From the NCBI GenBank assembly GCA_019312665.1, contig JAFDCZ010000046.1:1-42428 (forward strand): 42,428 nt of DNA, in the 5' to 3' direction. The notes beneath the pieces were generated by a model. It had not been told where the DNA came from. It saw only the letters and a program-made list of their open reading frames with translations, and did not search any database. This document shows, in pieces, positions 33,069 to 40,078 of the stretch. Numbering within the stretch: the first letter of the stretch is position 1; every line of letters begins with the position of its first letter. This DNA is from Deltaproteobacteria bacterium (GTDB taxonomy: Bacteria > Myxococcota_A > UBA9160 > UBA6930). The position numbers were made by a program, and so were the translations under genes.

Positions 33069-34364
33069 TCAGGCCGTTTCGATCCTGCCGGGCAGATCGA
33101 CCTGGATCAAGGTGCCTCCGCCCTCGCGTCCCATTGCGCGCGCTTCTCCTCCGTGGTGGCGTGCCACCTGTCGTACGATGGCGAGGCCGAGCCCCAGCCC
33201 ACCGGCCGCGCCATTGCCGCGGGTAAAGGCATCGAACACCGCTTGCTGTTGCGCCTCGGGGATGCCGGGGCCGCGATCTGCGACGGAGACGCGCACTCCG
33301 GGTCCGTCGGCGAGGGGGTCGATTCGGATCTCCACCAGGCAACCCGGTGCGTGGCGCTCGGCATTCGTAATCAGGTTGCGAAGCAGGTGGCGCAGACTGC
33401 GCGCATCGCCGAGTAGCGCGGGTGCGCCGTCCGGCGGGCCGACGACTTCGATCTCACCTTCCGCACGGGCTGCTTCTTCCGCCGCCATCGCGAGCAGGTC
33501 CACCTGGTCGTAGCCGGCCGTCGGCGCGAGCATGTCGAGCCGGCTCACCACCAGCAGCTCCTCGACGCCAGCGTCGAGCTCTGCGACATCGTGGGCCACC
33601 TGCCGACGGAGTTCCGATAGCCGCTCCGCGGAGAGATCGGCGCCGCCTCCCAGGATCTCGACGGCGATGCGCAGCCGCGCGAGAGGAGAGCGCAACTCAT
33701 GGGACGCACTGGCCAGGAGCGTCCGCTGCGCCTCGACCAACGATTCGATGCGCTGGGCCGTGCGATTGAAGGATTCGGCGAGCCGCGCGACCTCGTCTCG
33801 CCCCTCGATCGGCGCCCGCGCGGTCAGCTCGCCTTGCCCGAATGCATCCACGCTCGTGGAGAGGCGCTCGAGCCTCCCAGTGATACCGCGTGCAACTGGA
33901 TAGGCACCCACACCAAGGGCCAGCGCGAAGGCGGCCAGCGCAAGCAGACCATGCCAACCCGAACCGCGTCCGTGGGCGAGCCTGAGCACCACCCAGTGTC
34001 CGCTGGCAAGAGGAACCGCTGCCGCCGGTGGCCCGCGGAAGCCACCGCGAAGCCAATGCGCGCTGTCCTCATCGACGCGCGGAGCGGGTACGAGCGGCCC
34101 TGCCTCGACCAGCCGGCGTCCGTGTTCGTCGAACACGGCAAGACCGGAATTGAACTCCCGCGCCAGGCGCTCCACACGCACCTGCAACTTCTCGGGATCC
34201 GCTTCCTCGGGAGAGATCAGCAGCTCGGCTGCGGCCGTGAGCTCGGCGAGCGGACGAGCTTCCGATCCGCGATCCACCGCCCGGAACAACAGCGCGGAGA
34301 GGAGGAAGAAAACCAGTACGACCGCCAGGAAGGCCAGGTAGATGCGCAGGGAGAGTCGGCTCAT
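33069..34364 (-). CDS. Sensor histidine kinase (CpxA-like)
   Basis: A 431-residue membrane kinase. Helix 1 (YLAFLAVVLVFFLLSALLF) and helix 2 (LLALAAFALALGVGAYPV, about 140-157) enclose a periplasmic sensor region of about 105 residues. HAMP (about 158-205) leads to the H-box ASHELRSPLARLRIAVE (His about 220). The N-box NLITNAERHAP, DRGPGIPE and GLGLGLAIV form an intact ATPase domain. The start ATG 34362-34364 overlaps the response regulator's TGA as ATGA, so translation is coupled. The layout Spy-like protein, OmpR-type regulator, kinase resembles the enterobacterial cpxP-cpxR-cpxA envelope-stress locus; functional equivalence is inferred. Confidence 0.93.
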   Translation of the reverse strand: MSRLSLRIYLAFLAVVLVFFLLSALLFRAVDRGSEARPLAELTAAAELLISPEEADPEKLQVRVERLAREFNSGLAVFDEHGRRLVEAGPLVPAPRVDEDSAHWLRGGFRGPPAAAVPLASGHWVVLRLAHGRGSGWHGLLALAAFALALGVGAYPVARGITGRLERLSTSVDAFGQGELTARAPIEGRDEVARLAESFNRTAQRIESLVEAQRTLLASASHELRSPLARLRIAVEILGGGADLSAERLSELRRQVAHDVAELDAGVEELLVVSRLDMLAPTAGYDQVDLLAMAAEEAARAEGEIEVVGPPDGAPALLGDARSLRHLLRNLITNAERHAPGCLVEIRIDPLADGPGVRVSVADRGPGIPEAQQQAVFDAFTRGNGAAGGLGLGLAIVRQVARHHGGEARAMGREGGGTLIQVDLPGRIETA

Positions 34365-35086
34365 AGGCCAGGCTCGTCCTGCTTCGATGCGAACACGTAA
34401 CCCGTGCCGCGCACGGTCAGGATCCGGCGGGGCTTCCGGGGATCATCCTCGATGGCTGCGCGGATCCGTGAGATATGGACATCGATGCTTCGATCGAAGG
34501 CCTCGAGATCGCGACCGGCGAGCCGGGCCATGATCGCATCGCGGCTGAGCACGCGTCCCGGCTGATCGGAGAGCACACAGAGCAGCGCGAATTGATGACT
34601 GGTGAGTTCGCGGTCCTCGCCCTCGATGCGCACCTTCCGTGCGCCGTGGTCGATCTCCAGACGACCAAAACGTTCGATCTTGTCCCCACCGGGCTCCACC
34701 CGCCCCCGCCGCAGAACGGCCCTCAAACGGGCCAGCAGCTCCCGGGGGTTGAAGGGCTTCGGCAGATAGTCGTCGGCACCGAGTTCGAGACCGACGATCC
34801 GATCGGTCTCGTCCCCACGCGCGGTGAGCATCAGGATCGGCAACGCGGCCGCTGCATCCCCGGCCTCTCCGGCGCGGATACGTCGGCACAGATCCAGGCC
34901 GTCCCCATCGGGGAGCATCACGTCGAGAATCAGCAGATCGTAGATGCCCGCGGCACTGGCAAGGAATGCCAATCCATCCGCCACGGTTCCCCGTGCATCG
35001 ACCTCAAAGCCTGCTTCACCGAGATACTCCGCGAGCATGCGAGAGAGCTCCACGTCGTCGTCGATGAGCAGGATGCGAGGCGCCAC
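34361..35086 (-). CDS. OmpR/PhoB-family response regulator (CpxR-like)
   Basis: 241 residues from GTG 35086, where RILLIDDDVELSRML opens the receiver; the frame runs far upstream but that is antisense. The phospho-Asp is in LLILDVMLPDGDG, with LTARG and PKPFNPRELLAR for the Thr and Lys switch residues. The C-terminal winged helix reads SHQFALLCVLSDQPGRVLSR, RSIDVHISRIRAAI and VRGTGYVF. It overlaps the kinase start by ATGA. A perfect GTAAA-N5-GTAAA site lies about 674 bp upstream, before the Spy-like gene. The gap to the Spy-like gene holds an 11-bp hairpin. Confidence 0.95.
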   Translation of the reverse strand: MAPRILLIDDDVELSRMLAEYLGEAGFEVDARGTVADGLAFLASAAGIYDLLILDVMLPDGDGLDLCRRIRAGEAGDAAAALPILMLTARGDETDRIVGLELGADDYLPKPFNPRELLARLRAVLRRGRVEPGGDKIERFGRLEIDHGARKVRIEGEDRELTSHQFALLCVLSDQPGRVLSRDAIMARLAGRDLEAFDRSIDVHISRIRAAIEDDPRKPRRILTVRGTGYVFASKQDEPGL

Positions 35087-35199: not shown

Positions 35200-35430
35200 T
35201 CAGCGCCAACCGTGTCCGCGGCCGCCATGGCGACCCCGGTGCTTCTCGTGCTCGGCGATCAGCGTGGCACGCTGTTCGGGTGTGAGCACCTCGGCAACCT
35301 GAACGAGCGTGTCGACGACCTGCTTGGAGCCCTCCTCCATACGCATGAGGACTTCCCCACGCAGCCGCTCGAGGGCATCGCGATCCACGGCCTGGCCAGA
35401 CAAAGCCGCAGCGAACTCCGCGCGATGGGC
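35200..35430 (-). pseudogene. C-terminal half of the Spy-like protein, cut off by an in-frame amber codon
   Basis: After the TAG at 35431-35433 the same frame continues without stop to TGA at 35200-35202: AHRAEFAAALSGQAVDR, then ALERLRGEVLMRMEEGSKQVVDTLVQVAEVLTPEQRATL and a His/Gly/Arg tail (HEKHRGRHGGRGHGWR). LTPEQ is the LTxxQ motif of Spy/CpxP-type periplasmic proteins. An ATG-like start for this half alone is not evident; the piece begins with a TTG/GTG-free AHRAEF. It reads as the lost second half of the upstream protein. Confidence 0.75.
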
Positions 35431-35694
35431 CTAGTGCCCCTCGTGGAGACCGCGCATCTGCTCGATGGCTTCCTTCGCAATGATGGCGATCTCGTCCAGC
35501 TGTTGATCGCTGGGATCGGCACTGCGCAGCATCCAGCGAGCGCCGTGGCGGAGGTGATCCAGGTCGATCTCCTCGTCCCCGTGAAGCATGCCATGAGGGC
35601 CCGGGCCGTGGTGCCGGCCACAAGCGCTGGCCGTGACGACCATGAGGCCGAGAAGGCCGAAGACCGCCGAACCAATCCAGAATCTGCGTCCCAT
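35431..35694 (-). CDS. Spy/CpxP-like periplasmic protein, N-terminal part ending at an amber codon
   Basis: 87 residues from ATG 35694 with GGAGGAAATCAG upstream, ending at TAG 35431. A signal peptide MGRRFWIGSAVFGLLGLMVV ends near ASAC, an atypical lipobox (Ala at -3), so a cleaved or lipid-anchored form is possible. The mature part is His-rich (CGRHHGPGPHGMLHGDEE) and then helical (DQQLDEIAIIAKEAIEQMRGLHEGH). The same frame goes on past the TAG into the LTxxQ region, so the original protein was about 164 residues. A CpxR-type box precedes it. Such proteins act as periplasmic chaperones or sense metals and envelope damage. Confidence 0.75.
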   Translation of the reverse strand: MGRRFWIGSAVFGLLGLMVVTASACGRHHGPGPHGMLHGDEEIDLDHLRHGARWMLRSADPSDQQLDEIAIIAKEAIEQMRGLHEGH

Positions 35695-35721
35695 CTGATT
35701 TCCTCCCGAGCGCGTGCCAAG

Positions 35722-35727
35722 AGTATC
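35722..35727 (-). promoter_or_regulatory. Candidate -10 element for the Spy-like/regulator operon
   Basis: On the minus strand GATACT lies 28 bp upstream of the Spy-like ATG, with a transcription start expected near 35715. No good -35 hexamer precedes it, which is what an activator-dependent promoter would show. The GTAAA repeat sits 32 bp further upstream, at about -45 to -59. Confidence 0.4.
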
Positions 35728-35759
35728 GGCGGGAGGCATGTCGGGGGATGTTCGCGCAG

Positions 35760-35774
35760 GTAAAGAAGTGTAAA
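35760..35774 (-). promoter_or_regulatory. Perfect CpxR-box sequence (GTAAA-N5-GTAAA)
   Basis: The plus strand reads GTAAA (35760-35764), GAAGT, GTAAA (35770-35774); the minus strand is TTTAC-ACTTC-TTTAC. This is the exact enterobacterial CpxR consensus, a direct repeat with a 10-bp step typical of OmpR-family sites. It lies between the Gfo/Idh stop (35782) and the Spy-like start (35694), in AT-rich sequence within a GC-rich genome. The downstream OmpR-type regulator is the obvious candidate to bind it. Confidence 0.7.
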
Positions 35775-35781
35775 GCCGGGC

Positions 35782-36813
35782 CTAGGGGCCTGTCGTCACC
35801 CGAAGCGGAAGCCCTGCCGCCTGATACACCCGGTCGATCGTCTTCATGTTCCCGAGCGTATCCGCACGCCCCCCGTAGACCGGAGCGTAGGGCGCACCTT
35901 TCTCGAGCAACTGCAGGAAGGCCTCGAGTTGGTAGGCGAAGGTCGTACGGCGGGTGAGCTCTTGCCGTTCCGGCTCGCGTCCTTCCAGCGTCAGCGTGAT
36001 CTCGTGGCCGATCATCGGCGCCTGGAACCGCGTCACCTCGAGCCGACCGCGCGGGCCCCTGGCCCGGAAAACGCTCTCGAAGGGCGTGCCTCGGCCCATC
36101 CCCGCTCGCATGCGGCCCACGGCGCCGCTGGGAAAGCGAAGCTCCGCCTGCATGTGCGCGTCGATTCCGGCTGGGCCCTGTTTGGCTTCTGCCGTGATCC
36201 CTTCCGGCTCCTGCCCAGAGGCCATGCGCAGCACGTGGAGCGTGTAGCAACCGAGATCCATCGTCACGCCGCCGGCGAGGGAAAGATCGAAACGGATATC
36301 CTCTTCTGGAATCGGAGCCGTGAAGACGGCCTCCAGCTCTTCCAGCGGGCCGAGCAACGAACCGCCCTCTCCCGTTCCGCGGCAGACCTCGACCAGGTGT
36401 TGCGCGACCGGGTGGTAGGGGTAGTGGATCGCCTCCATCAGCAACAGACCGCGGCGTTCGGCCTCGTCGAAGAGCCGCTCGGCTTCCGCGGCGTTGGCGG
36501 CGAGCGGTTTCTCGCAGAGCACATGCTTGCCTGCGCGAAGCGCTTCGAGGGTCCAGGGGCCGTGAAGCCCGTTGGGGAGCGGGTTGTAGACGACGTCCAC
36601 GTCGTCTCGCGAAAGCAGGGCTTCGTAGGATTCCGACACGTCCGCGATGCCCTGAGCTTCCGCAAAGGCACGCGCCCTCTCGGGCTCCCGTGCCGCGACG
36701 GTCACGACCCGTGCACCGGCCTGTTCGGCACAGGGATCCACGATCGCCTTCGGCGCGATTCTCGCGGCACCCAGGATTCCGAAACCAACGATGTTCGAGG
36801 AGCTCGATTGCAT
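35782..36813 (-). CDS. Gfo/Idh/MocA-family oxidoreductase
   Basis: 343 residues. The N-terminal Rossmann fold has GILGAARIAPKAI, VYNPLPNGLHGPW and the catalytic EKPLAANA. The C-terminal half has DLGCYTLHVLRMA with the usual His, and FAYQLEAFL. This fits trans-1,2-dihydrobenzene-1,2-diol dehydrogenase/deoxyfluoroglucose-type members that oxidise sugars or diols with NAD(P). There is no secretion signal, so it acts in the cytoplasm. It is divergent from the SDR at 36855 across 41 bp. Confidence 0.92.
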   Translation of the reverse strand: MQSSSSNIVGFGILGAARIAPKAIVDPCAEQAGARVVTVAAREPERARAFAEAQGIADVSESYEALLSRDDVDVVYNPLPNGLHGPWTLEALRAGKHVLCEKPLAANAAEAERLFDEAERRGLLLMEAIHYPYHPVAQHLVEVCRGTGEGGSLLGPLEELEAVFTAPIPEEDIRFDLSLAGGVTMDLGCYTLHVLRMASGQEPEGITAEAKQGPAGIDAHMQAELRFPSGAVGRMRAGMGRGTPFESVFRARGPRGRLEVTRFQAPMIGHEITLTLEGREPERQELTRRTTFAYQLEAFLQLLEKGAPYAPVYGGRADTLGNMKTIDRVYQAAGLPLRVTTGP

Positions 36814-39367: not shown

Positions 39368-39379
39368 AGGCGGCCGGAA

Positions 39380-39468
39380 GCGGGGACGTTCTTTCCGCTG
39401 TTTCCGTTACTCGGTTTCCCGCTTCGCGGGAAACCGAGTAACGGAAACAGCGGAAAGAACGTCCCCGC
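39380..39468. repeat. Perfect 89-bp palindromic element (43-bp arms)
   Basis: Left arm 39380-39422 and right arm 39426-39468 are exact reverse complements, with a 3-base TTC loop (the apex reads GCTTCGC). The element lies in the 102-bp gap between convergent msrA and the DUF937 gene and almost fills it. It ends in GAACGTCCCCGC and begins with GCGGGGACGTTC, shared in part with the 23994-24066 inverted repeat. Such long perfect palindromes are typical of REP-type mobile repeats and could also end transcription in both directions. No transposase gene is in the window. Confidence 0.85.
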
Positions 39469-39469
39469 G

Positions 39470-40078
39470 CTAGCGGCGGAAGAATCGGCCCAGGAGGCTC
39501 TTGCCTGCGCTGATAATCCCCTCGTCGATCTGCCCGTCGCCGTCCATGTCGAGCAGGTTGCCGAGCGGGCCGAAGCGAGCACCGAGGGAGTCCTCCGCGT
39601 GCTTGGCGACCTGGCCCAGTTCGTAACCGAGCTCCTGGGAGCCCATGCGATGCTCCTGCTGCGCCTTGCCGAGGGCGCCCATCACCAGGGGCGCCAGAGC
39701 GACCAACAGCTTCGAAATCGTGGCTCCGTCGAGGCCCGCGCTTCGCCCGATCTCGCTCTCGATGCCACCTCGCTTGACGCCTAGCATATGCCCCAGGATC
39801 GCCTCGCCGATCGAGCTGCCTTCGGCACCCCCGCCACCAAGCGCACCCACGAGATCGTCGAGGATGCTGCCGTCGTGGCCTCCGTCGAGAGCGGCGAGCA
39901 GGGCGTCGGCTCCCTGGGGAGCCGACATGTTCCGGCTGAGCGCGCTGAACATCATGGGCAGGGCGGCGCCCGCAGCCTCCGCCGTGGCGTCCTCGGAGGC
40001 TCCGACCTGCCGAGCCAATGCCTCCAGGCCCTTGCCTTGGGTCAGCTGGCCGAGGAGTTCATCGAACATCTGATCCAT
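39470..40078 (-). CDS. DUF937-family protein with EF-hand-like calcium-binding loop
   Basis: A 202-residue protein. The first 150 residues are DUF937-like: LLGQLTQGKGLEALARQVG, MMFSALSRNM, and the Ala/Gly-rich ILGHMLGVKRGGIESEIGRSAGLD with VALAPLVMGALGK. The tail LLDMDGDGQIDEGIISAG is a clear EF-hand/dockerin-type DxDxDG loop. The function is unknown. Start ATG 40078 lies 4 bp from the stop of the upstream nitronate monooxygenase, so they form an operon. Confidence 0.85.
   Translation of the reverse strand: MDQMFDELLGQLTQGKGLEALARQVGASEDATAEAAGAALPMMFSALSRNMSAPQGADALLAALDGGHDGSILDDLVGALGGGGAEGSSIGEAILGHMLGVKRGGIESEIGRSAGLDGATISKLLVALAPLVMGALGKAQQEHRMGSQELGYELGQVAKHAEDSLGARFGPLGNLLDMDGDGQIDEGIISAGKSLLGRFFRR

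Follow-up and report, generated by a model that had tools for sequence, protein, structure and literature searches.

A CpxR-type box with a conserved distance to the promoter upstream of a Spy-like/response regulator/kinase operon

Organization of the locus

The window, by which we mean the whole stretch of 42,428 nucleotides that was analyzed, carries on its minus strand, in this order, a Gfo/Idh oxidoreductase gene, a CpxR-type box, a Spy-like gene, an OmpR-family regulator gene and a histidine kinase gene. The features are as follows:

35782-36813, minus strand: Gfo/Idh/MocA oxidoreductase open reading frame, which precedes the box
35760-35774, minus strand: CpxR-type box, TTTAC-ACTTC-TTTAC on the gene strand, an exact match conserved from the genus to Proteobacteria and Myxococcota; proposed strong binding site of the adjacent regulator
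35749-35753, minus strand: third, weaker block, GAACA (GACAA in the clade), 11 bp beyond the second half-site of the box in the direction of transcription; putatively a degenerate half-site
35738-35742, minus strand: fourth, weaker block, GACAT (GAAAC in the clade), a further 11 bp along; this proposed degenerate half-site lies about 10 bp before the -10 element
35722-35727, minus strand: predicted -10 element, GATACT (N-A-N-N-N-T in the clade), at a fixed distance from the box
35200-35694, minus strand: Spy/CpxP-like periplasmic protein (Metal_resist PF13801 / LTXXQ PF07813), product of the gene that heads the operon, assigned from profile matches and intact in relatives
34361-35086, minus strand: OmpR-family response regulator (receiver and winged helix), proposed DNA-binding partner of the box
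33069-34364, minus strand: sensor histidine kinase (HAMP, HisKA, HATPase_c) that overlaps the regulator stop and is without the CpxA periplasmic domain

With its in-frame stop read through, the Spy-like frame passes the PF07813 and PF13801 cut-offs (39.6 and 46.7 bits), the stop-free genes of relatives also match the Spy/CpxP family profiles, and the frame is the sole PF13801 match found in the genome. A mechanical open reading frame call places the start of this gene at 35739, which was rejected because it lies upstream of the predicted transcription start; the ATG at 35694 is preferred for that reason and because it is preceded by GGAGG. The in-frame stop, overlooked when the DNA was first read from sequence, is a TAG at codon 88 (35431-35433, minus strand; context EGH*AHRAEF). 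Codon 88 is GAG in the nearest congener and the frame is open in other relatives. The TAG is due either to a nonsense mutation that arose recently or to a fault in the assembly, and this genome may lack an intact Spy-like gene.

Elsewhere in the window, at about 39375-39470 and following an MsrA-like frame, lies a long, nearly perfect inverted repeat (GGGGACGTTCTTTCCG...CGGAAAGAACGTCCCC). A 16-mer of this repeat occurs in 47 copies per genome strand, most of them in pairs that face each other at a distance of about 70 bp, against 0 copies of the reversed control, and the element belongs to a REP/REPIN-like repeat family.

Sequence and rarity of the box

The box occupies the interval between the stop of the Gfo/Idh gene and the start of the Spy-like gene (ATG at 35694, minus strand) and points at the Spy-like/regulator/kinase locus. 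Both this location and the sequence, GTAAA-GAAGT-GTAAA at 35760-35774 (GTAAAGAAGTGTAAA), are as described in an earlier model-generated note (hereafter the sequence-only reading), with no mismatch. The site conforms to the CpxR-box definition of two direct GTAAA repeats separated by 4-8 bp, the spacer in the window being 5 bp. Read on the gene strand it is CTTTACACTTCTTTAC, that is TTTAC-N5-TTTAC, which is the same orientation as at E. coli cpxP and which the earlier reading had missed.

A pattern search of the full genome (5,307,391 bases) for exact GTAAA-N5-GTAAA, as the sequence-only reading had proposed, returns one match, the box itself, while the reversed control pattern gives 2 matches in the same genome and the chance expectation is about 0.01 per window. 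One match per genome is unremarkable by itself, so that the weight of the argument rests on the place of the box and on its conservation.

Conservation of the box

Orthologous regulators are present in all four congeners examined (93, 90, 76 and 71% identical), each with the box at the same place: it reads TTTACACTTCTTTAC in two of them, and TTTACAGTTCTTTAC and TTCACACTTCTTCAC in the others. In the last of these sequences (genome G001) both half-sites are altered in step to TTCAC-N5-TTCAC. When the four congeners are compared with the window without gaps and anchored on the box, the 16 bp of the box show 95% identity, as against 44% just upstream and 61% downstream. Relatives in the family and order also keep the box (loci L006, L007, L009, L012 and L124). 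Among the more distant loci of the order it has other genes upstream and reads TTCACGTTTCTTTAC, TTCACACAACTTCAC, TTTACGTGTCTTTAC and TTTACCTTTCTTTAC, and CTTTACACTTCTTTAC recurs ahead of a Spy-like gene in genome G013. At locus L007 (order relative G025) a methyltransferase-like gene (about -721 to -44) replaces the Spy-like gene between box and regulator.

Relatives of the regulator were sought in 84,980 species genomes and 80 named loci were obtained, of which 42 were usable for a count within the regulator clade; by the tree this clade ranges over Alpha-, Beta- and Gammaproteobacteria and Myxococcota. Forward TTYAC-N5-TTYAC is found within 1 kb upstream at 28 of the 42 loci and the N6 form at 4 more, all in Comamonadaceae, and no other forward spacing of the repeat occurs in the same 1 kb intervals. 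Shuffled sequences give a mean of 0.03 matches and a maximum of 1, compared to the 28 observed, and none of 29 control loci from the OmpR clade has an N5 box. About a quarter of the clade loci show no recognizable N5 or N6 box within 1 kb (for example L036, L045, L051 and L054). In Comamonadaceae that have no upstream Spy gene it is the regulator gene itself that carries the box, 60-110 bp upstream, indicating that it belongs to the regulator and not to the Spy gene or the upstream neighbor. The half-sites of L037, L041, L052 and L060 (Comamonadaceae) are separated by N6, giving an 11-bp period where near relatives have N5; this is a natural spacing variant at the same promoter.

The sequence-only reading had drawn attention to an unchanged match in a distantly related genome. 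That match is real, and the box is conserved, among congeners and across the clade, in relatives that keep the locus. It is not isolated, however, since it spans a clade of regulators, and an instance from Sinorhizobium meliloti has been in print since 2010 (PMC2912261).

Promoter geometry

Alignment of 33 sites anchored on the second half-site of the box brings a -10 element into register, whose A (offset 48) and T (offset 52) occur together at 32 of the 33 loci and each at 15/15 loci whose regulators are less than 72% identical. The transcription start is placed by this element at a predicted position near 35715, which would put the box at about -59 to -45. A distance of 45-59 bp to the transcription start had already been proposed for the box, and the fixed spacing of the -10 element now backs it.

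Between the box and the -10 element two further positions rise above the 95% column-shuffle line: A at offset 24, in the GACAA block (25/33 loci), and A at offset 35, in the GAAAC block (28/33 loci). The window itself has C at offset 24, with A at 22, 23 and 25. The conserved A residues thus fall at offsets 3, 13, 24 and 35, successive ones being 10, 11 and 11 bp apart. No sequence fits as a -35 element: the GACAA block, which might be taken for one, would be separated from the conserved -10 by a spacer of 22 bp and was dismissed. The natural interpretation would be that two dimers bind four half-sites arranged head to tail, the box serving as the strong distal pair and the two further blocks as the weak proximal one, in the manner of PhoB/OmpR-type activation.

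Identity of the regulator and kinase

By NCBIfam cut-offs the regulator is neither CpxR nor OmpR. It scores 169.4 bits against the CpxR profile (NF008199, cut-off 341; E. coli CpxR scores 508.6 in the same scan) and 233.6 bits against the OmpR profile (NF007005, cut-off 331), the latter being the best of all profiles. The kinase likewise reaches 114.5 of 486 bits for CpxA, and the periplasmic domain PF16527 present in E. coli CpxA is absent from it. In trees the regulator falls in a clade of its own (support 100/95 and 100/97). E. coli CpxR, a long branch here, is placed among acidobacterial and desulfobacterial proteins and E. coli OmpR in a gamma/beta OmpR group. None of the possible pairings of these clades is rejected (regulator clade with CpxR, p-AU 0.263; regulator clade with OmpR, 0.081; CpxR with OmpR, 0.296).

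The recognition helices of the regulator and CpxR have the pattern FDR-x-I/V-D-x-H-I-S in common. The DNA-contact positions, which we take to be those of the PhoB-DNA complex including PhoB R201, are occupied in the regulator by His198, Ser200, Arg201, Arg203, Thr217 and Arg219 (PhoB numbering). CpxR differs from it at one of the six, position 201 (Asn in place of Arg), and OmpR has Gln198 and Trp219. The comparison with CpxR suggested by the sequence-only reading therefore gives a match of helix and wing at most DNA-contact positions, with the exception of 201.

Origin of the shared sequence

Whether the shared box reflects an ancient recognition code or convergence, as that reading had asked, is a genuine question and a larger one than this locus; with no clade pairing rejected (p-AU 0.081-0.296), neither side is favored. 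Convergence of two OmpR-family clades on a TTTAC repeat with a 10-bp period is possible, if somewhat doubtful, as the source of the identity with the enterobacterial CpxR box. The separation of the two clades in the trees and the different residue at one recognition-helix contact point in this direction, while the joint clade with CpxR that the trees do not reject (p-AU 0.263) argues the other way, as do the acidobacterial and desulfobacterial members of the CpxR clade (L087 and L102) that carry the same box near their regulator, as at E. coli cpxP. Convergence concerns the origin of the box and is compatible with its function as an operator in autoregulation. In L087 (acidobacterial, about 115 bp upstream) and L102 (Desulfarculales, about 350 bp upstream) the box lies on the opposite strand, which suggests a divergent target as at E. 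coli cpxP.

Number of targets

A Cpx-type regulon of many exact boxes at envelope genes is not seen, the genome containing one exact site. The stricter pattern CTTYAC-N4-CTTYAC has one to three matches in each of 11 related genomes; 10 of the 16 matches stand at the Spy-like/regulator/kinase operon and the remainder are no more numerous than in the reversed control. The second, relaxed site of the window's genome is inside a coding frame. In this genome the exact site seems to serve no operon other than the Spy-like/regulator/kinase operon.

Function of the box

The comparative data support a functional-looking CpxR-type box for the Spy-like/regulator/kinase operon, as originally suspected. 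We consider it very probable that the box is the activator-binding operator of the adjacent OmpR-family regulator, which would switch on its own operon. This reading follows from the retention of the site, its spacing, its orientation and its distance to the -10 element across most of the clade whatever the first gene may be (Spy-like, another gene or the regulator), and binding by the cognate regulator is inferred from the co-conservation of the box with the regulator clade. In the proposed mechanism the kinase would sense an envelope signal, perhaps metal or misfolding, and phosphorylate the regulator, a dimer of which would then occupy both TTTAC half-sites of the box in head-to-tail fashion, at about -59 to -45. 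The two weaker, 11-bp-phased half-sites would probably hold a second dimer, which would reach to about 10 bp from the -10 element and stand in for a -35 element. Transcription of the spy-like, regulator and kinase genes would thereby be activated, combining positive autoregulation with production of the Spy/CpxP-like periplasmic protein.

The genome has 44 regulator matches (E <= 0.001) and the box is identical to the CpxR consensus of E. coli, so that the box could instead be bound mainly by a different OmpR-family regulator, the operon being an output of another system. We regard this as improbable: the site tracks the clade of the adjacent regulator across classes and follows the regulator gene where Spy is missing, and the lack of a second exact site in the genome would be odd for a global regulator.

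Several members of the OmpR family are repressors and negative autoregulation occurs in the family, which leaves room for a repressor-like site through which the regulator shuts off the operon. A box that precedes the core promoter and keeps a constant helical distance to a -10 element with no -35 element is nevertheless placed as activator sites are; the S. meliloti operon is strongly induced along with its own regulator (PMC2912261) and P. aeruginosa CpxR activates cpxP (PMC5063474), and repression is in our view very improbable. Finally, a functionless box, arising by chance or as a by-product of the preceding gene end, has a negligible likelihood, for although the reversed control leads one to expect about one or two such matches per genome, conservation with in-step changes, over large distances and behind different upstream genes refutes it.

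Implications

It is conceivable, although we think it rather unlikely, that a single operator-promoter module (TTYAC-N5-TTYAC, two degenerate 11-bp-phased half-sites and a -10 element at a constant distance) has persisted while Proteobacteria, Myxococcota and the lineage of the window diversified, serving as a one-operon, self-activating envelope switch, the global CpxR regulon of enterobacteria being a later expansion.

The CpxR box is in any case no enterobacterial speciality, as it is characteristic of a wide clade of Spy-regulator-kinase operons in which the regulator falls below the CpxR family cut-off, and the position of the operator relative to RNA polymerase is common to that clade as well. 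These features enable function prediction for many unannotated envelope-stress systems and offer a sharp promoter model of four phased half-sites and a fixed -10 element. They also provide a way to ask whether the recognition code of a transcription factor can persist as its regulon expands from a single operon into a global network.

Comparison with known systems

E. coli cpxP, a Spy-family gene, is preceded by TTTAC-N5-TTTAC in the orientation seen in the window (CTTTACGTTGTTTTACA), with a candidate -10 element, TAAACT, one base nearer the box than in the clade of the window. E. coli CpxR and the window regulator have the helix His and Ser and the wing Arg in common. The two systems differ in that cpxP is divergent from cpxRA, whereas the Spy-like gene of the window heads one operon; in addition the window regulator falls below the CpxR cut-off, its kinase does not have the periplasmic domain of CpxA and sites are not spread over the genome.

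Tandem sites of the PhoB/OmpR type consist of head-to-tail half-sites about one helical turn apart that extend to about 10 bp from the -10 element and replace the -35 element. Compared with the pho box, which has TGTCA half-sites and an 11-bp period, the window has a TTTAC half-site with a 10-bp period, and compared with PhoB/OmpR tandem promoters in general it has four proposed half-sites of which only the distal pair is strong.

The P. aeruginosa CpxR-CpxP-CpxS system is similar in that the promoter for a periplasmic LTXXQ protein carries a GTAAA box (PMC5063474, PMC10648845). In reporter assays CpxR activates cpxP, and mutation of the GTAAA box in the mexA promoter abolishes activation by CpxR (PMC5063474). 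Unlike the window, P. aeruginosa has the order cpxR-cpxP-cpxS and several targets (muxA, mexA).

A further counterpart is from S. meliloti, where SMb21562 (CpxP-like), SMb21561 (regulator) and SMb21560 (kinase) are up 69-, 27- and 14-fold in a tolC mutant and where GTAAAN5GTAAA was reported upstream of the SMb21562-SMb21561-SMb21560 operon (PMC2912261). The gene order (CpxP-like, CpxR-like, CpxA-like) is that of the window, and the regulator belongs to the same clade (59% identical). The pSymB locus in our set (L122), which we equate with SMb21560-62 from gene order and box, has the exact box and the same geometry between box and -10 element. The host lineage and the spacer are different, and the demonstrated induction is that of the S. 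meliloti operon. In the literature searched we found no description of a wider conservation of the box, of its fixed promoter geometry, of the additional half-sites or of the separation of the regulators from CpxR, which is not proof that none exists. The operon of the window is thus a further case of the kind reported in 2010 in S. meliloti. To that kind the present analysis adds how broadly the box is conserved, how rigid its distance to the promoter is, two more half-sites in phase with it and a regulator clade that is distinct from CpxR proper.
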